A program made the position numbers and the translations under genes. DNA of 36,697 bases from assembly GCA_017617715.1 (NCBI GenBank), contig JAFZVQ010000012.1, positions 1 through 36,697 of the forward strand. The letters are read 5' to 3'. The DNA comes from Bacteroidales bacterium. GTDB lineage: Bacteria; Bacteroidota; Bacteroidia; Bacteroidales; UBA932. Below are positions 2,951 through 10,769 of the stretch, piece by piece (the first letter of the stretch is position 1; every line of letters starts with the position of its first letter). The notes below the pieces were generated by a model. The model saw only the letters and a list, made by a program, of their open reading frames with translations. It ran no database searches and had not been told where the DNA came from.

Positions 2951-5626
2951 ATGAAAGCAATATATGGATTTGGGCTGCTTGCGGCGGCTTTAGGCATCGC
3001 GGCGTGCAGCAACATCCCGGAAGTTGAAGCGCCCGTGGAGCCGCAGGAGATCATCCTGACCGCTTCACGGGAAGGCCTCACCGGCGCCTCGACCGCCGCC
3101 CCCGCCGCCGCTCTCCCCACCCGCTCCCTCCGCATGGACGACGGGTCGGTGTGGTGGCAGCCGGAGGAAGAGGTGAGCGTGTTCTACGGCAGCGGCACGG
3201 ACGGCGGCAGCAAGTTCGTGACCAGGAACACCGCCCTCGACGAAATCACGGACCTTTCCGGCTCCCTGTCCATGACCGGCACCGGCAAGGAATTCTGGGC
3301 CGCCTACCCCTACTCCACCGAGAACGCCTGCGACGGCACCACCATCACCACCGTCATCCCCGACAAGCAGACCGCCGTCGAAGACAACTTCTCCGACAAC
3401 ACCTTCCCCGCCGTCGGCAAATCCAAGAACCTGCACATAGCCTTCCGCAACGTCTGCGGCGGTGTGAAATTCTTCGTGTCCCGCAGCGACATCACCTCCG
3501 TCACCTTCAGGGGCAACGACGGCGAGACCCTCTGCGGCAAAGTGAAGCTCAGCTTCGACGAGGCCGGCATCCCCCGCATGGCCGGCGTGGTCAACGGCAA
3601 ATCCGAAGTCACCCTGAAAGCCCCCGGAGGCGGCACATTCAAGCCGGGCAAGTACTACTACATGACCCTGCTGCCCACCGCCCTCGACGGCGGCTTCACC
3701 ATGACCTTCATCACGCTGCAGAGCATCGGCCACATGGTCTCCGACAAGCCGCAGACCATCAAGCGCTCCGTGTTCGGTGTGCTCAACAGCATCGACAGCA
3801 AGATCGGCAGCTGGACGGAAAGCGTGCCCGCCAAAAGCGTGACGCTGGACAAGACCGAGCTCCTGCTCACCGCCGGGGCGACCGGGAGCCTGAGCGCCAC
3901 CATCACCCCCTCCAACGCCACGCACAAAGAGATACAGTGGACAAGCAGCGACGCCACCGTGGCCAGCGTCAGCGCAGACGGCACCGTGACCGCCCTTAGC
4001 TCCGGCAGCGCCACCATAACCGCCCGTACGCTGGACGGCGTCTCCTCCGAAGGCTGCCACGTCTGCGTGCTCGCTGCCAGCACAACCGTCTATGGCACAG
4101 TCAAATGCGACGGCGCCCCCGTGCCCGGCACCCTCGTCTCCGACGGCGCTGAAATAGTCCGGACCGACGACCACGGCATCTACCAGATAGCGTCCGCCAA
4201 AAAGTGGGAATACGTCTTCGTGACCATCCCCAGCGGCTACATGGTCCCCTGCCAGGGCATACTGCCCAAGCTCCACCAGGCCACCAGCCAGTCCGCCACC
4301 GCCCCGGAGCGCAAGGACTTCGAACTTGTCAAAGTCGACAACGACAAATTCAACCTTTTCGTCTGCGGCGACTTTCATCTCGCCAAGCGCATCGAGGATA
4401 TATCCCAGTTCAACAAGCTCTCCGTGACCCTCAACAGCGCCATCTCCGCATCCGACGGCCCCTGCTACATAATGACCCTCGGCGACATGACTTGGGACCT
4501 TTACTGGTACAGCAACTCCTATCAGTTCCCCCAGTACCTCAGCACCATGAACTCCAGGCTGAGCACGCCGTTCTTCCACACCATGGGCAACCACGACAAC
4601 GACATGAACTCGGTCGGCGACTACTACAAGGCGTTCAAATACACCCGCGACATCGCGCCTACGTTCTACTCTTTCAACCTGGGCAAGATCCACTTCATAG
4701 TGATGGACAACATCGACTACAACAACGTAGGCACCGGGTCCGCGCTCCGCAGCGAATACAAGAAGAATTACACCGCCGAGCAGATGACCTGGCTCGCCAA
4801 GGACCTCTCATTCGTGGACAAGTCCACCCCTGTGTTCATCACTTCACATGCGCCCGTTTCCCATCCCAGCGGCACCTCCTGGAGCAACACCTACATGAAC
4901 GGCGCAGACGAAGCGGGAGAAGCCAATATGTCCGACTTCCTCTCCGCAGTGTCCAGCTACAACGTCCACTTCCTCAGCGGCCACACCCACAACATCTTCA
5001 ACCGCAAGCACTCGGCCAAGTTCTCCGAACACAACAGCGGCGCGATCTGCGGCTCCTGGTGGTGGTCCGGGCACCTGACGAGCGGCATCCACCTCTCGCA
5101 GGACGGCTCTCCCGGCGGATTCGGCATCTGGCGCTTCGACGGCACGTCCTTCACCCAGACCTACCAGGCAGGCGGCCACGACATAGATTACCAGTTCCGG
5201 GCCTACGACATGAACAAGGTCAAGGAGTACATAACCCCGGAACTCGGCGGCAGCCACAAGGACTTCACCAAGTACTCCACCGCGATGGCCGCCTACCCCG
5301 CCAACACCATCCTGGTGAACGTGTGGGACTACGACCCCACGTGGACCATCAAGATCACCGAGGAAGGTAAGTCACTGAGTGTCACGCATGTGACCGCCTA
5401 CGACCCGCTCCACATCGTGGCCCTGTCGGCGCCCCGCTGCAAGAGCGCTTCGGCCAGCTCCACCCCCAGTTTCCTGACCGGCTCCTGGCCCCATTTCTTC
5501 AAGGCCACCGCCTCAAGCGCCACTTCCACCGTCACAATCACCGTCACCGACCGAAACGGCAAGACCTACACCGAGACCATGACAAGGCCCAAGGCCTTCA
5601 ACGTCGCGGACTACAAAAACAACTGA
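2951..5626 (+). CDS. Modular lipoprotein: fimbrillin-like N-domain, Big2 domain and calcineurin-like phosphoesterase
   Basis: 891 residues. A signal peptide ends in LGIAAC (lipid Cys19), so the protein is probably anchored in the outer membrane or surface-exposed. Residues about 30-290 are a fimbrillin-like module shared with the next two lipoproteins (VSVFYGSG, GGSKF, NVCGGVKFF, KYYYMTLLP). Residues about 295-365 are a bacterial Ig-like group 2 domain (ITPSNAT, WTSSD, DGTVTALSSGSATITA). A MetallophosN-like strand domain follows at about 375-450. The catalytic core has all the two-metal motifs: D474-F-H476, GD512, N547-H548-D549, H633 and G-H678-T-H680. The C-terminus looks like MetallophosC. 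Family knowledge predicts hydrolysis of a phosphoester or phosphodiester; the substrate is unknown. It is transcribed from its own promoter. Attachment of the enzyme to a fimbrillin-like module is unusual. Confidence 0.88.
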   Translation: MKAIYGFGLLAAALGIAACSNIPEVEAPVEPQEIILTASREGLTGASTAAPAAALPTRSLRMDDGSVWWQPEEEVSVFYGSGTDGGSKFVTRNTALDEITDLSGSLSMTGTGKEFWAAYPYSTENACDGTTITTVIPDKQTAVEDNFSDNTFPAVGKSKNLHIAFRNVCGGVKFFVSRSDITSVTFRGNDGETLCGKVKLSFDEAGIPRMAGVVNGKSEVTLKAPGGGTFKPGKYYYMTLLPTALDGGFTMTFITLQSIGHMVSDKPQTIKRSVFGVLNSIDSKIGSWTESVPAKSVTLDKTELLLTAGATGSLSATITPSNATHKEIQWTSSDATVASVSADGTVTALSSGSATITARTLDGVSSEGCHVCVLAASTTVYGTVKCDGAPVPGTLVSDGAEIVRTDDHGIYQIASAKKWEYVFVTIPSGYMVPCQGILPKLHQATSQSATAPERKDFELVKVDNDKFNLFVCGDFHLAKRIEDISQFNKLSVTLNSAISASDGPCYIMTLGDMTWDLYWYSNSYQFPQYLSTMNSRLSTPFFHTMGNHDNDMNSVGDYYKAFKYTRDIAPTFYSFNLGKIHFIVMDNIDYNNVGTGSALRSEYKKNYTAEQMTWLAKDLSFVDKSTPVFITSHAPVSHPSGTSWSNTYMNGADEAGEANMSDFLSAVSSYNVHFLSGHTHNIFNRKHSAKFSEHNSGAICGSWWWSGHLTSGIHLSQDGSPGGFGIWRFDGTSFTQTYQAGGHDIDYQFRAYDMNKVKEYITPELGGSHKDFTKYSTAMAAYPANTILVNVWDYDPTWTIKITEEGKSLSVTHVTAYDPLHIVALSAPRCKSASASSTPSFLTGSWPHFFKATASSATSTVTITVTDRNGKTYTETMTRPKAFNVADYKNN

Positions 5627-5630
5627 TTGC

Positions 5631-5661
5631 TTGATATTTAGATTAACAATATTTATATTTG
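5631..5661 (+). promoter_or_regulatory. Promoter for the first peptide-lipoprotein cassette
   Basis: TTG (5631-5633) and TATATTTG (5654-5661) lie 20 bp apart and match the Bacteroidota -33/-7 pattern. The start codon of the small peptide at 5686 is 24 bp downstream of the -7 box. No equivalent box is seen before the second peptide at 8240, so the four genes from 5686 to 10769 probably form one transcript. Confidence 0.7.
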
Positions 5662-5685: not shown

Positions 5686-5814
5686 ATGAAGAAAGAATTT
5701 CTTTACACTGAGCCCCAGAGCGAAGAGTTGTCCGTCCTGGGCCTTGAAATGATGTGTACCAGTCCTGAGGAAGGAGGCCTTGAAGGGGTTGAAGATGAAG
5801 ATTGGGTAGTCTAA
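5686..5814 (+). CDS. Small acidic peptide, copy 1 (42 aa)
   Basis: A 42-codon ORF with the same design as the peptide gene at 8240. Both begin MKKE, then have Y-x-EP, an L-rich stretch, M-x-C-x-SP, and an acidic tail containing EGV and a Trp three residues from the C-terminal end or one further in. In this copy the central motif is MMCTSP and the tail is EGVEDEDWVV. There is no signal peptide or membrane segment. It has its own promoter and ends 15 bp before the lipoprotein ATG, with a Shine-Dalgarno in that gap. Conservation of the protein, codon by codon, between two copies argues that it is translated. Bacteroidales genomes contain many short hypothetical peptides with a Y-x-x-P and Cys-Ser style, whose function I do not know. 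It could be a secreted or modified peptide, a leader peptide, or a partner of the lipoprotein. Confidence 0.72.
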   Translation: MKKEFLYTEPQSEELSVLGLEMMCTSPEEGGLEGVEDEDWVV

Positions 5815-5815
5815 T

Positions 5816-5822
5816 AAGGAGG
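5816..5822 (+). promoter_or_regulatory. Shine-Dalgarno before lipoprotein copy 1
   Basis: AAGGAGG lies 7 bp before the ATG at 5830, inside a longer block AAGGAGGATCCGG that recurs before the second paralogue. Strong Shine-Dalgarno sequences are uncommon in Bacteroidota. The site fixes the start at 5830 and lies immediately after the stop of the small peptide gene. Confidence 0.75.
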
Positions 5823-5829
5823 ATCCGGT

Positions 5830-8220
5830 ATGAAAACATTGTTCAAGATTGCTTTGATAGCGGGTGTGGCGATAGCCTCCGCCGCTTGCAACGACCTGAT
5901 TGAAAAGAGCCAGATCCCCCAGGGAGGTCAGATCACCCTGATCGCCACCCGCGAAGGAGTTTCCCCCGACACCAAGACCGTACGCCTGTCCGACGGCTCC
6001 GTCTGGTGGAACCCGGCGGAAGAAGTGAGCGTCTTCTATGGCTCCGGCCGCGATGGAGGCAGCAAGTTCGTGTCCAAGAACACCGACATCGCAGCCACCG
6101 CTGAACTGACCGGCGACATCTCGATGACAGGCACCGTGGCCAATTTCTGGGCCGTGTATCCCTACGACGCCACCAGCTACTGCGACGGCGAATCCATCAC
6201 AACGACAATTCCCGACCGGCAGGAAGCCGTGGAAGGCAACTTCTCCGGCAACGTGTTCCCCGCAATGGCCACGTCCGAGACCACCACGCTCTCGTTCTAC
6301 AACCTCTGCGGCGGTCTGAAATTCTTCGTGTCCCGCAGCGACATCAAGAGCCTGACCATCAAGAGTGACGGCGGCGAAGCCCTGGCCGGCACCGTGCGGT
6401 TTGCATTCGGTCCCGACGGCGTGCCCGCAATCTCCCAGGTTGTCGACGCAAAGAGCGAAGTCACCCTCACAGCCCCCGGCGGCGGCACCTTCGCAGTGGG
6501 CAAGTACTACTACGTGACCCTGCTGCCCGGCACCGTGAGCGGCCTCTGGCTTACCCTCTCCACCGCATCCGAGGACGGCGTCATCTACATCAACTCTTCC
6601 CGCACCATCAAGCGTTCAGTGTTCGGCGTGCTGAAGAACCTCGACGCCAGCGTGACCGAGTGGAACAGCAACAAGCCCCAGACGTCCCTCAAGGACTTCG
6701 CAGTTGAGTTCGTCAAGGGTCTCGATGTCTGGGAGAGCACAGTGGGCACGGTCGAGTCTGAAAGTCAGCACCTTATCGAGAGGGGTACCGCGTGGCAGAA
6801 CGTCCATTTTATCCCCATCGTTCCCAATCCCAACTGCGAGTATCTGAGCAACGCCGGCAACCAGTATGATCCCCAGTACACCCCCTGGGTACTGAACGTA
6901 GGCGGACAGGAGATCAGCTCCAGCCAGGCATGGGAAATCGCCATCCGCGGCCTCATGAACATGTGCACCGCAGAAGGTGAAGCCTTCCTTGCCGACATGA
7001 CCGACCGCAACAAGCCTTACACCCTCCAGGACGGCCTGTCCCTGACCGCAGCCCCCATCTCCGAGCCCAGCGCATCCAACAAGTGGGGCAAGCATCCTTG
7101 GTATGAGGGCAGCAACGACGAGCGCATAAAATACAACGGTTCCGAGATCGAGAGCGTCGATATCAATTTCATCATCAAGGTGGGTGCATGGCATGTGGTC
7201 CGTTCCTTCATCTCCAACGCCGGCAACAGCCCGCTCGGCATGATTGGCAACTTCCAGCAGTTCGGCACCAGTTCCAGTACCCTCAAGCTTGAAGGTTACG
7301 AGGGCCTCATCGCCCCGATGCGCGAGATGCTCGTGATGATGCGCATCTACAAGTACCTGCTCGACAACAACATCGACAGCAACGTCTACACCGCCATCAA
7401 GGACCAGAAGTTCAGCTTCGACCTCTATGGCGAGCAGCCCGCTCCCCCCGGACCCCAGCCCACGGTCACTCCTTTCAAGACCCAGTGGGATTTCTGCGCC
7501 GCTTCGGCTCTCGACGAGACCACAGGATACGTCAGTACTTTTGGCGGCGCTCCCAAGTATGACGCCACAGGCGCTTTTGACGGCGCCGAATCCATCAGGG
7601 ATAATACCGCCGGCGACGGAGGAAGGTATGTGGATGCCAACAAGCTCGGCTCCGGCAGGATTACGTTTGTCCAGATTGACAAGACGGCAATGGACACCGA
7701 TCCTGAAAGCCCTATAGCCGGAAGGAATGTAGGATCCACCGGACACCCGTACCAGACAGGAACATGGAAAGGTGATTACTGGCTGATCACAGCCACCAAC
7801 GGCAATGAGCAGCCGGCAGGCGCCAAAGCCCACATCAAGTTCATCACTCGTTCTTCCAAGACCGGTGTCAAATATTGGATCGCCGAGTACTTCGACGGAA
7901 ACGACTGGCAGCCGGCACCTCTGGAAGTTCCTGAGGAAGGCTTCACTTATGCCGAGCCCCAGACCAAGACTGTCGAATCGGACGAATTCACCTATAATGT
8001 GGTGATGAAGACTGACGGCAAGAAGAACACGACTGTGGAGAGCACCTTCACGCTGGCCGCCAACCTGACCATACTTCAGTTCCGCTTAAGGGCTGTCGGC
8101 CTGTACAAGGCACAGGATGATGCCGCCATGACGGCACTCAGCGGTTGTACTTCCCGTATCGCCGGATCCACGGAAAAGGATGGCGTCACCACCAGCCCTG
8201 TTTTCGAGGTGATTGAATAG
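5830..8220 (+). CDS. Lipoprotein with fimbrillin-like N-domain, function unknown (paralogue 1)
   Basis: 796 residues. The signal peptide ends in ASAAC with lipid Cys20. Residues about 30-280 form the fimbrillin-like module (VSVFYGSG, GGSKF, NLCGGLKFF, KYYYVTLLP). Residues about 287-545 are a central region starting LKDFAVEFVKGLDVWE. It contains helical stretches such as SSSQAWEIAIRGLMNM and MREMLVMMRIYKYLLDNN that faintly resemble pseudomurein-binding (PMBR) repeats. Residues about 548-795 form a probable beta-rich C-terminal domain starting PFKTQWDF. A Pro-rich linker, APPGPQPTV, separates the two. It is colinear with the gene at 8385 over its whole length. No catalytic motif was recognised. 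A surface binding protein or adhesin is the most natural reading; this is inference. Confidence 0.85.
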   Translation: MKTLFKIALIAGVAIASAACNDLIEKSQIPQGGQITLIATREGVSPDTKTVRLSDGSVWWNPAEEVSVFYGSGRDGGSKFVSKNTDIAATAELTGDISMTGTVANFWAVYPYDATSYCDGESITTTIPDRQEAVEGNFSGNVFPAMATSETTTLSFYNLCGGLKFFVSRSDIKSLTIKSDGGEALAGTVRFAFGPDGVPAISQVVDAKSEVTLTAPGGGTFAVGKYYYVTLLPGTVSGLWLTLSTASEDGVIYINSSRTIKRSVFGVLKNLDASVTEWNSNKPQTSLKDFAVEFVKGLDVWESTVGTVESESQHLIERGTAWQNVHFIPIVPNPNCEYLSNAGNQYDPQYTPWVLNVGGQEISSSQAWEIAIRGLMNMCTAEGEAFLADMTDRNKPYTLQDGLSLTAAPISEPSASNKWGKHPWYEGSNDERIKYNGSEIESVDINFIIKVGAWHVVRSFISNAGNSPLGMIGNFQQFGTSSSTLKLEGYEGLIAPMREMLVMMRIYKYLLDNNIDSNVYTAIKDQKFSFDLYGEQPAPPGPQPTVTPFKTQWDFCAASALDETTGYVSTFGGAPKYDATGAFDGAESIRDNTAGDGGRYVDANKLGSGRITFVQIDKTAMDTDPESPIAGRNVGSTGHPYQTGTWKGDYWLITATNGNEQPAGAKAHIKFITRSSKTGVKYWIAEYFDGNDWQPAPLEVPEEGFTYAEPQTKTVESDEFTYNVVMKTDGKKNTTVESTFTLAANLTILQFRLRAVGLYKAQDDAAMTALSGCTSRIAGSTEKDGVTTSPVFEVIE

Positions 8221-8239
8221 CAAATAGCATTCTTGTCTT

Positions 8240-8371
8240 ATGAAGAAAGAAAGATTTTACATTGAACCCGAGTGCAAGGAAGTCCTCGCACTTGAATTCG
8301 ACATGACTTGCGCAAGCCCCTCTGACGGAAGGAATGAGGGTGTGCAGGAAGAAGAGTGGTTTTTCAGTTAA
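8240..8371 (+). CDS. Small acidic peptide, copy 2 (43 aa)
   Basis: A 43-codon ORF, the second member of the peptide family seen at 5686. Shared features in order are MKKE, an aromatic-rich F-Y-x-EP, an L-rich middle, M-x-C-x-SP (here MTCASP), and the acidic tail EGVQEEEWFFS. It starts 19 bp after the preceding lipoprotein and ends 13 bp before the next lipoprotein ATG, exactly mirroring copy 1. No promoter box was found in the short gap, so it is probably read from the upstream promoter. A longer reading of the next lipoprotein from 8334 would overlap this peptide and is rejected. Confidence 0.72.
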   Translation: MKKERFYIEPECKEVLALEFDMTCASPSDGRNEGVQEEEWFFS

Positions 8372-8377
8372 AGGAGG
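8371..8377 (+). promoter_or_regulatory. Shine-Dalgarno before lipoprotein copy 2
   Basis: AAGGAGG lies 7 bp before the ATG at 8385 and overlaps the last base of the small peptide stop codon. The block AAGGAGGATCCGG is identical to the one before the gene at 5830. It decides the lipoprotein start, which also gives a proper signal peptide. Confidence 0.75.
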
Positions 8378-8384
8378 ATCCGGC

Positions 8385-10769
8385 ATGAAATCATTATTCA
8401 GATTTGCTATGATAGCGTCTGCGGTGATAGCCGCGGCCGCTTGCAACAAGGAGGTTGAAGCGCCCGAATCCCCTGCTTCCCAAGGAGAAAAAATCACTCT
8501 CTCTGCCTGCCGTGAGGATATTGCCTCCGGCACCAAGTCTTTGCTCCGGGACGACCTCTCCGTGTGGTGGAACACAGGCGAGTCCCTGAGCGTATTCTTC
8601 GGCCCCGGCTCCGCCGGCGGCAGCAAGTTCGATTCCCAGAACGCCGACCCAGCCGCCACAGCCAACTTTGACGGCACGGTCGAGACCACCGGTGTGGATC
8701 CCGACTCGGACTACTGGGCCGTGTATCCCTACTCCGCCGACAACACCAGCGACGGATCGTCCGTGACCATAGTCATTCCCGACCAGCAGAATGCAGTGGA
8801 AGGCAACTTCGCGGACAACGCGTTCCCCGCCGTGGCCAAAAGCAAGAGCCTCAGCCTGTCCTTCATGAACGTCTGCGGCGGCTTGAAGTTCAGCGTGACC
8901 CGCGACGACATCACCTCCCTGACCTTCGAAGGCAAAGGCGGCGAGCCTCTGGCCGGCACGGTGAAGGTGGAATTCGACGCCGAAGGAAAACCCACGGCCA
9001 GCGTGATTGACGGCAAGAGCGCCGTCACCCTCACCGCACCTGCAGGCGGTACTTTCGAGTCCGGCAAGTTCTACTACATGAACCTGCTTCCCGCAGCATT
9101 CAGCGCCGGCATCAAGATCACCATGACCACCGCTTCGGCAGAGGGCGTGCTGGAATCCACCCAGAACCTCAGCATCAAGCGCTCCGTGCTTGCGTTGATC
9201 CGCAACGTCGACACCTATGCCACCTGGGCTGCAATTCCTCCCGCAGTGTCCCTCAAGGACTTCGCAGTGGAGTTCGTCAAGGGCCTCCAGGTCTGGGAAT
9301 GGACTGTTGGCAACGTCGATGCCGACGGCGTACGCAACCAGGGCAGCACAAAGGGAGCGTGGCTAAACGTCCACTTCATCCCGATCGTGGGCAACACCAC
9401 CGGCAACTACTACAATTATGGCAACAACCAGTATGATTATTCTAAATACACTCCTTGGGTCCTGAATGTGGCCGGCACCGAGTACAGCTCAAGCCAGGCA
9501 TGGGAAATTGCCATCCGCGGTCTGCTGGAGATGTGCACAGCCGAAGGCCAGGCATTCCTCGACGGAATGACCAACCGCAACAAGGCTTACACGCTCCAGG
9601 ATGGTATGGATATATCCATGATACCCATCCCTGAAACCAGCACTAGCAACAAATGGGGCGCGAATCCCTGGTATGAGTATGGCAACCTGGTGAAAGACGG
9701 AAGCAACGACATCACCGAAGTCGATATCAACTTCATGATCAAGGTAGGCGCATGGCACGTGGTACGTTCCTTCATCAATAACAGCGGCAATACCAGCCCT
9801 CTCGGAGCGATAGGCAACTTCCAGGAATTCGGCACCACATCCAGCACGCTGAACCTTGGCAGTTACAAGGGCTACATTTCTCCTATGCGCGAGCTCCTCG
9901 TGCTCATGAGGATCTACAAGTACATTGTCGACAACGGCATCGACAGCAATGTCTACACTGCCATCAAGGACCAGAAGTTCAGCTTCGACCTCTACGGCGA
10001 CACTCTCCCCATCAAGGCCCAGTGGCTGTTATCTGCAGCTAACGCCCTTGACGATAAGACCGGATACGCCCACACCTTCGGTGGTGCGGACAAGTATAAG
10101 GATACTGGTGAATGGAATGGAACTGAAGGCTACGCGTATACTACAGCCGGCGACGGAGGAAGGTATGTAGACGCAGTCAAATATGGCAAGGGCAGACTCA
10201 CCTATGTACAGGAAGACAAGACCGGAATGGACAACAGCGATCGCGCCGCGCGTTCTGTGGGAGCGACCGGACATCCTATTTCCACCGGCATCTGGTATGG
10301 CGACTACTGGCTGTTCACCTTGACTTCGCCCAGGGAGCTCCCTGCAGGGACACAGATCCACATCAAGTACATCGCCCGTTCATCAACCGCAGGCCCCAAG
10401 TATTGGATGGGAGAATACTATGATGGAGATGAGTGGAAAACGGCCCCTATGGAGGTCATCGAAGACGCATACAACTTCGCCATACCCCAGGAAAAGACAC
10501 TGAAAGACCGGAACGGAGATAATGAAACCTTCTCATACAACATCGCCATGAAGGAAGACGGAGACCACAACACTACCGTTGAAAGCTACTTCACCCTCAC
10601 GGCTCCGACCTCCCTGATCCAGTATCGCCAGAGAGTCACCGGTTTGTATCGAGCAAGCAATAGCAAAGCTATCACCGGTTTGGGCAATGCCACCACCCGT
10701 ATCGCCGGTTCTGCTGGCCTCCAGGACGACGGCACCTACACCAGCCCTCTCATCGAGGTGGTCCCGTAA
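8385..10769 (+). CDS. Lipoprotein with fimbrillin-like N-domain, function unknown (paralogue 2)
   Basis: 794 residues from the ATG at 8385, chosen because it follows the Shine-Dalgarno and begins a clean lipoprotein signal (MKSLFRFAMIASAVIAAAAC, lipid Cys20). The in-frame ATG at 8334 would add 17 residues in front of the signal and overlap the small peptide. The domain order is the same as in the gene at 5830: fimbrillin-like module at about 30-285 (LSVFFGPG, GGSKF, NVCGGLKF, KFYYMNLLP), central LKDFAVEFVKGLQVWEW region at about 290-540, and C-terminal domain from about 542 starting PIKAQWLL. The central part, around residues 460-540, is most alike between the two. There is no Pro-rich linker here. 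The function is unknown. A strong terminator follows, closing the cassette operon. Confidence 0.85.
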   Translation: MKSLFRFAMIASAVIAAAACNKEVEAPESPASQGEKITLSACREDIASGTKSLLRDDLSVWWNTGESLSVFFGPGSAGGSKFDSQNADPAATANFDGTVETTGVDPDSDYWAVYPYSADNTSDGSSVTIVIPDQQNAVEGNFADNAFPAVAKSKSLSLSFMNVCGGLKFSVTRDDITSLTFEGKGGEPLAGTVKVEFDAEGKPTASVIDGKSAVTLTAPAGGTFESGKFYYMNLLPAAFSAGIKITMTTASAEGVLESTQNLSIKRSVLALIRNVDTYATWAAIPPAVSLKDFAVEFVKGLQVWEWTVGNVDADGVRNQGSTKGAWLNVHFIPIVGNTTGNYYNYGNNQYDYSKYTPWVLNVAGTEYSSSQAWEIAIRGLLEMCTAEGQAFLDGMTNRNKAYTLQDGMDISMIPIPETSTSNKWGANPWYEYGNLVKDGSNDITEVDINFMIKVGAWHVVRSFINNSGNTSPLGAIGNFQEFGTTSSTLNLGSYKGYISPMRELLVLMRIYKYIVDNGIDSNVYTAIKDQKFSFDLYGDTLPIKAQWLLSAANALDDKTGYAHTFGGADKYKDTGEWNGTEGYAYTTAGDGGRYVDAVKYGKGRLTYVQEDKTGMDNSDRAARSVGATGHPISTGIWYGDYWLFTLTSPRELPAGTQIHIKYIARSSTAGPKYWMGEYYDGDEWKTAPMEVIEDAYNFAIPQEKTLKDRNGDNETFSYNIAMKEDGDHNTTVESYFTLTAPTSLIQYRQRVTGLYRASNSKAITGLGNATTRIAGSAGLQDDGTYTSPLIEVVP

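Follow-up and report, generated by a model that had tools for sequence, protein, structure and literature searches.

The DNA analysed here (the window) is the whole 36,697-nt contig JAFZVQ010000012.1 of Bacteroidales bacterium (UBA932; assembly GCA_017617715.1, genome G000 below), which carries on its plus strand two very small open reading frames (ORFs), each lying directly before a lipoprotein gene. Peptide gene copy 1 (5686..5814, 42 amino acids) ends 15 nt before the ATG of lipoprotein gene 1 (5830..8220, 796 amino acids), and copy 2 (8240..8371, 43 amino acids) ends 13 nt before lipoprotein gene 2 (8385..10769, 794 amino acids), whose product is a paralogue of lipoprotein 1 by profile and direct comparison. 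The original prediction of two ORFs of 42 and 43 codons with shared motifs, 13-15 bp before lipoprotein genes, is thus borne out; the copies are 45% identical in a pairwise alignment, and the residues common to both include M1, K2, K3, E4, Y7, E9, P10, M22, C24, S26, P27, G34, V35 and W40. Reading frame, copy alignment and family profile and, for copy 1, the ratio of nonsynonymous to synonymous substitution rates (dN/dS) mark both ORFs as genes. They probably encode precursors of a ribosomally synthesized and post-translationally modified peptide (RiPP) akin to the Linear Polyphosphorylated Peptides (LPPs; Popov et al., Nat Commun 2026, PMC13381572), in a Bacteroidota variant with precursors dispersed over the genome and paired with lipoproteins.

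LPP precursors are described in that paper by the pattern YxxPxVLxHQxIxFET|AQS with variable C-termini, cleavage takes place before A1-Q2-S3 by a signal peptidase I (SpI)-like protease guided by a RiPP recognition element (RRE), and the product is phosphorylated on S3 (S3A abolishes this, and S3T is not phosphorylated). By analogy with this scheme, copy 1 as a predicted LppA-like precursor would have a leader of residues 1-23 (5686..5754), in which the conserved Y7 (5704-5706) and P10 (5713-5715) form the presumed RRE-binding motif, and a predicted core CTSPEEGGLEGVEDEDWVV (5755..5811), whose position +3, the S26 codon at 5761-5763, is on analogy and conservation the predicted phosphorylation site. 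For copy 2, alignment places the corresponding predicted leader, again residues 1-23 with Y7 and P10, at 8240..8308 and the predicted core CASPSDGRNEGVQEEEWFFS, likewise with S26 at core position +3, at 8309..8368.

A peptide family before lipoprotein genes

A profile made from the two copies retrieved further members in G000, with 16 matches for an eight-sequence and 27 for a fifty-sequence profile, and 18 of 41 genomes of the genus, G000 included, have a peptide match at E up to 0.01. The family signature runs from Y-x-x-P across a stretch that usually measures 12 residues to a hydrophobic residue, which is followed by [C/A]-x-S and an acidic tail. The arrangement aromatic-xxP..[CA]xS is found in 101/102 genus members (the aromatic residue being Tyr in 100 of the 101), and Y7, P10, C24 and S26 are invariant in 50/50 aligned members otherwise 19-49% identical to copy 1, counts that are in part built into the set, its members having been retrieved with motif-bearing profiles, and for which the position test and the upstream check described below are the better controls. 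The distance from Tyr to Ser is 19 in 90/101 genus members, 20 in nine and 18 in two; the residue at -1, before C/A, is mostly L, I or V, and the predicted cores have a median length of 19 amino acids (range 11-36), a net charge of -5, 26% D/E and 1.6% K/R. Spacing of the conserved residues is fixed to each other and to the start, not to the stop. Of the motif M-x-C-x-SP singled out initially, C/A-x-S is a family constant while SP is not; the single Cys regarded as striking does occupy position +1 of the predicted core, but it can be Ala (2/101), and by analogy it is the Ser two residues on that matters.

Purifying selection is indicated by the dN/dS check that had been proposed: copy 1 and L135, the nearest relative retrieved for it, give dN 0.15, dS 1.10 and a ratio of 0.13, and the two window copies give dN 0.39, dS 2.2 (near saturation) and a ratio of about 0.18, the ratios of the listed pairs being lowered because those pairs were chosen by protein identity and the window pair having been chosen by position. 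The family has no Pfam or NCBIfam entry; library scans with the two window copies gave no match at E up to 1 (PHROGs and PADLOC lay outside the search), and scans with 50 members gave single-member matches at E 0.07-0.14 and no convincing family. In the portions of the open-licence literature consulted, no description was found of these peptides or of LPP-like genes in Bacteroidota. Named relatives (18 loci) are Bacteroidales/Bacteroidia metagenome genomes, several of them from rumen or omasum samples. In a phylum sample 3/392 genomes had a match, the own genome included, absence being weak evidence there because diverged members easily escape the profiles. In order-wide counts of MKKxYxxP, for which the background is about one per genome, G144 (16), G234 (8) and G263 (8) stand out, all others having at most 5. 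Among individual members, a YxxP..[CA]xS peptide is in frame with a lipoprotein signal sequence without a stop, like a fusion, in G263 (L131:1948-3057); tandem peptide genes precede one lipoprotein at L123:2409-2699, L077:1132-1423 and L055:4815-5259; and a family match with two internal stops in G288 (C24, L175) is possibly a decayed copy.

Position before a lipoprotein gene is a property of the family and not of the window alone. A lipoprotein follows 69 of 74 distinct genus peptides according to pattern and another two on inspection by eye. The last three comprise one that precedes a second peptide, one for which a longer locus shows a lipoprotein 12 nt downstream, and that of L007, which is placed after, not before, a lipoprotein of this kind. 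In the G000 loci a small ORF (sORF) with the strict motif stands before 26/73 lipoprotein starts as compared to 1/120 other genes (raw counts 24/71 and 3/122, prior to reassignment of two lipoproteins misclassed as other genes), a position beyond chance. With a looser pattern, 47 of the 79 places in G000 that match the shared N-terminal domain (N-domain) of the lipoproteins have a motif sORF just upstream, of which two (C30 and C78:83378) are probably chance. Among the places without one, several nonetheless end in an acidic sORF, and a single protein accounts for two of the 79. The gap between peptide and lipoprotein is most often 12 nt and ranges from -17 to +27, with 149 and 153 for two tandem first copies. 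The sequence TAnnTTTG, the Bacteroidetes -7 element, occurs within 80 nt upstream of 32/101 genus peptides as compared to 6/100 and 6/101 in controls, and in 1/102 windows covering the peptide end and the gap; where the motif is seen, as for copy 1 and many relatives, the peptide gene therefore heads the transcription unit of the lipoprotein.

The N-domain, at about 5929-6654 in lipoprotein gene 1, is matched by its profile 79 times in G000 (2.3 Mb, 77% complete) and in 80 of the 98 ORFs downstream of peptides, with very different C-terminal parts among the proteins scanned: leucine-rich repeats (LRR), Big_2, Lcl_C and phosphoesterase. It looks fimbrillin-like by eye, and a Pfam scan of lipoproteins 1 and 2 themselves, taken as far as E 1, gave no match. 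The C-terminal halves of these two are 59% identical, and both contain a domain of about 250 amino acids (6682-7461 and 9231-9998), also present as three matching stretches in L136 and devoid of a Pfam match in the window proteins. The start of lipoprotein 2 is set at 8385 and not at the first in-frame ATG, at 8334, because of its signal peptide. A third paralogue (2951..5626, plus strand), assigned from library scan and profile, combines the N-domain with Big_2 and metallophosphoesterase and has no peptide gene upstream. Hence the cassette of peptide and lipoprotein is not universal and the N-domain occurs with or without peptide; of the duplicated cassette proposed originally the pair is real, but with this paralogue, and with a family far larger than one cassette, the proposal covers part of the picture. 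Read in the sequence, TATATTTG (5654..5661, plus strand), 24 nt 5' of the copy 1 ATG, matches TAnnTTTG; none was noted before copy 2, and the third paralogue has its own TAnnTTTG-like motif upstream. Shine-Dalgarno (SD) sequences are uncommon in Bacteroidota; both window copies carry an SD-like AAGGAGG in the gap to the lipoprotein.

LPP-type genes in the genome and in related families

The YxxP leader raised the suspicion of recognition by a PqqD-type RRE, YxxP being the lasso RRE motif (PMC13381572). PqqD is found in 14/15 genus genomes tested and in 30/47 of a second set, and since it is so widespread by itself only its neighbours are informative. G000 has it at C64 and at C27, and in both of these clusters it is accompanied by a signal-peptidase-like protease, an ATP-binding cassette (ABC) exporter and an HprK-like kinase; HprK-like kinase, SpI-like protease, RRE, exporter and a nucleoside triphosphate (NTP) transferase are the core genes described for LPPs (PMC13381572). 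The two G000 clusters (C27 as L287, C64 as L288) are diverged, their proteins being 44-49% identical. SPASM enzymes were considered as an informative partner and set aside, as they occur in 14/15 genus genomes, peptide-rich and peptide-poor alike. In another genus member, G013, sulfotransferase-like, PqqD and asparagine-synthetase-like genes stand together by eye (C1, L275), a possible lasso-type cluster.

Twenty loci were scanned, from 11 protease-positive, profile-negative genomes and nine others, six of them being mapped gene by gene. In the protease, Ser35 and His73, corresponding to the catalytic Ser and His of SpI-like peptidases, are invariant in 19/19 aligned sequences, as is Asp88 (in GD), 15 residues after the His, and its profile matches SPase and SEC11 chains in PDB (best 1.8e-4). 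In the RRE, N35 and D73 are invariant in 20 aligned sequences, an alignment that leaves out L301 and the PqqDs of L296, L304, L305 and L360, and they pair with N33 and D70 of LppB (chain numbering minus 18, in agreement with the residues named in PMC13381572), which hold the leader Pro and Tyr (PMC13381572). Structure matches of the RRE are chain 9x8z (E=0.043) and TfuB1 (5e-7). The HprK-like kinase has a tblastn match in 18/20 loci (not L397 and L411) and in both G000 clusters, with a strict P-loop in 11/14 checked (L288 reads AKSGTGKST) and, for that of L402, a match to HprK_rel_A at 3e-7, below cut-off. The exporter is present in both G000 clusters and in 16/20 loci; its match to the MsbA model reaches 4.5e-69, below the curated cut-off of that model, and CydC is slightly better. 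An NTP transferase has a tblastn match in 11/20 loci, with PF14907 in L400, and none is evident from gene reading in the two G000 clusters, at which no tblastn was aimed. All five enzyme types are together in 10/20 loci, and an asparagine-synthetase-like macrolactam cyclase has no tblastn match in any of the 20.

A precursor lies in or beside the cluster in 4/20 loci, all from other families of the order. L402 has peptide, lipoprotein, kinase, protease, RRE, NTP transferase and ABC exporter in a single run; the order in L405 is peptide, lipoprotein, ABC, protease, RRE and then kinase, and in L397 peptide, lipoprotein, an ORF like an outer membrane protein, protease and ABC. In L398 the peptide stands directly before the kinase, followed by protease, RRE, NTP transferase and ABC. 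Of 14 pattern matches in the 20 loci, those of L402, L397, L405 and L398 alone avoid long ORFs and score positive against the family profiles, that of L405 weakly, and the three linked lipoproteins match the N-domain profile (4e-15, 1e-8 and 4e-5). The peptide-lipoprotein pair thus stands beside LPP-type genes in three families, which is the strongest single argument for relating the two.

Co-occurrence in genomes points in the same direction. In a draw of 247 genomes of the order, the peptide-positive ones being G000, G048, G092, G144, G234 and G263, an LppS-like protease at E<1e-25 is found in 6/6 of them as compared to 11/241 others (p=4e-8), with a cut chosen after viewing the scores, within the gap from 7e-27 to 9e-16, and at E<=1e-4 in 6/6 as compared to 25/241 (p=2e-6); two pairs of the six positives share a genus, giving four genera, and with G175, excluded for a match with two stops, the count at the stricter cut is 6/7 and 11/240 (p=3e-7). 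In the second set, outside the genus, the protease lies within 1.5 kb of the best PqqD in 6/8 peptide-positive genomes as compared to 0/36 others (p=4e-6), where the 36 negatives, of which 21 have PqqD, are judged by the best PqqD locus within this distance. Three genomes are omitted from this comparison: G722 because its match contains a stop, G270 for want of a peptide match and G048 as a member of the genus itself. G722 and G048 carry LPP-type loci; G088, counted as negative, has an LppS-like gene elsewhere, and the protease of G092 is about 3.6 kb from its PqqD, outside the 1.5-kb rule. Within the genus, the protease is in the PqqD locus of 12/15 genomes.

Proposed pathway and competing explanations

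Matching precursor architecture, LPP-type genes in the genome and their linkage in relatives together favour a modified or secreted peptide, the first of the roles (modified or secreted peptide, cargo, regulatory leader) offered in the original prediction. Extending the LPP scheme, we infer a pathway in which the RRE would bind the leader through YxxP, the HprK-like kinase would phosphorylate Ser26 at core position +3, the signal-peptidase-like protease would remove the leader just before C24, and the ABC protein would export the acidic core of about 19 amino acids. Each precursor would be co-expressed with one lipoprotein bearing the fimbrillin-like N-domain. This partner, outside the cytoplasm, is the most likely target or associate of the core, and of all the steps this one is the least certain. 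[CA]xS might also be read as a small-x-small (-3/-1) site for the protease; both are possible, and cleavage before C/A is preferred as it puts Ser at +3 like in LPPs.

Concerning the partner, Mantel correlation with the N-domain over 84 pairs is 0.70 for the core as compared to 0.15 for the leader. At N-domain distances below 0.3 core identity is 0.74 and leader identity 0.48, and through the bins below 0.65 these fall to 0.56 and 0.33, respectively, with both nearing their baselines at greater distances. Among close pairs the core sequence thus fits constraint by its own lipoprotein. A further-reaching version, to which we give somewhat less than even credence, is a genome-wide peptide-adhesin code in Bacteroidota, in which one central LPP-like pathway would phosphorylate, trim and export dozens of different acidic peptides, each sharing a transcription unit with one adhesin-like lipoprotein and matched to its N-domain as ligand, assembly factor or decoration of that surface protein.

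Several observations weigh against the LPP-like interpretation. D93, the third catalytic residue in LppS, sits 25 residues after its His (PMC13381572), not 15 as Asp88 does here, making their equivalence uncertain; the FET cleavage motif of LPPs is absent here; pattern scanning recognised no precursor in either G000 cluster locus; and tblastn found neither RRE nor kinase in the 12 kb of L397. Inside the genus the cluster fails to separate the two groups, the protease being present in 7/8 peptide-positive genomes (scored by profile A3) and 5/7 negative ones (p=0.57), and G032, with 5 peptide matches, has a PqqD without LPP-type neighbours and G287, with 7, shows no PqqD. Family f104 gave 43 matches in 4 genomes; of the 26 peptides that could be read in 30 loci, 19 lie within 60 nt after another ORF and 3 before a lipoprotein. 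Ranked over all pairs, core and partner are only weakly linked (rho 0.26, as compared to 0.08 for the leader), and beyond an N-domain distance of 0.7 the link is absent. Part of the correlation may come from common descent combined with a leader that drifts faster.

Of the competing explanations, a regulatory leader ORF, whose translation would control the lipoprotein start by coupling or nascent-chain stalling and whose product would be inert, would account for a promoter-like motif that stands upstream of the peptide and hardly ever downstream of it, for the tight gap and for the SD-like AAGGAGG within it. It is nevertheless rather unlikely, as coupling alone needs no amino-acid conservation, the conserved residues are spaced from the start and not from the stop (cores of 11-36 amino acids), and linkage and co-occurrence with LPP-type genes are left unexplained. 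Moreover, the f104 peptides mostly follow another ORF with no lipoprotein behind; many of these upstream ORFs look secreted by eye, and family f114 has two genomes with the peptide 15-18 nt before a lipoprotein, so that the association with an exported-looking partner persists across lineages although the gene order changes, which speaks against a pure leader-ORF role. The f104 partners were also considered as proteins of the type IX secretion system, which was dropped, their secreted appearance being by eye only and no model matching their sorting-domain-like tails (four proteins with NCBIfam, two with Pfam).

An unmodified cytosolic small protein, serving its lipoprotein as chaperone or targeting factor, would agree with there usually being one peptide per lipoprotein and with the core tracking the N-domain among close pairs, but is improbable given that it explains neither the spacing of YxxP and [CA]xS nor the LPP linkage. 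Lasso peptide precursors, with YxxP leaders, a PqqD-type B1 protein and a cyclised product, are suggested by the motif (PMC13381572) and by the RRE of G000:C27, which matches lasso_PqqD models far below their cut-offs; the missing cyclase in the 20 loci, the acidic cores of varied length and a signal-peptidase-like protease in the place of B2 (for which no search was made) render them very improbable. Spurious ORFs conserved merely through DNA duplication are refuted in substance, for while the window pair does share the strong SD-like flanking DNA AAGGAGGATCCGG (5812-5829 and 8369-8384, before the lipoprotein start), four residues are invariant among diverged members, dN/dS is low and the position control is 26/73 as compared to 1/120.

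Comparison with known systems

Short ORFs preceding a main ORF also occur as upstream-ORF leader peptides (e.g. PMC12121999); the peptides analysed here are set apart by their conserved motif at the protein level, by the composition of the core and by a different gene order in another lineage. Type V pilins or fimbrillin-family lipoproteins comprise FimA and Mfa, and the lipoproteins here share with them only a resemblance of the N-domain by eye, the two in the window being without a Pfam match as far as E 1. Paeninodin-like phosphorylated lasso peptides have in common with the present loci an RRE, an HprK kinase, an NTP transferase and an exporter, and have as their own features, according to PMC13381572, a WxxP leader, a B2 protease and a macrolactam cyclase. 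Searching the 20 loci with tblastn gave no such cyclase, and no B2 search was made.

Closest are the LPPs (PMC13381572). Alike are the SpI-like protease, the discrete RRE, the HprK-like kinase, the MsbA-like exporter and, in 11/20 loci, the NTP transferase, as well as the conserved YxxP leader, Ser at predicted core position +3, the variable C-terminus and the lack of a detected cyclase. Unlike are the [CA]xS after a hydrophobic residue in place of FET|AQS, with VL and HQ also not found, and the Tyr-Ser spacing, usually 19 here and 18 there. LPPs are called restricted to Bacillota, with their peptidase cluster "predominantly" in that phylum, and have 1-3 precursors in the cluster, whereas the host here belongs to Bacteroidota, tens of precursors are dispersed over the genome and nearly every precursor in this genus is paired with a lipoprotein. 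In G000 the predicted precursors lie away from the biosynthetic clusters and outnumber them by about 20:1, so that RiPP mining, usually confined to the neighbourhood of biosynthetic genes, would miss them. If the relationship is true, LPP-like chemistry would extend to a phylum that is common in the rumen and in guts; the finding further suggests a route of small-peptide export tied to adhesin-like proteins of gut bacteria. As the biological role of LPPs is given as unknown (PMC13381572), the steady pairing with lipoproteins provides a concrete hypothesis for it. On the best reading of these data, what is new here is thus the phylum, the tens of dispersed precursors per genome and the association of each precursor with one fimbrillin-like lipoprotein.

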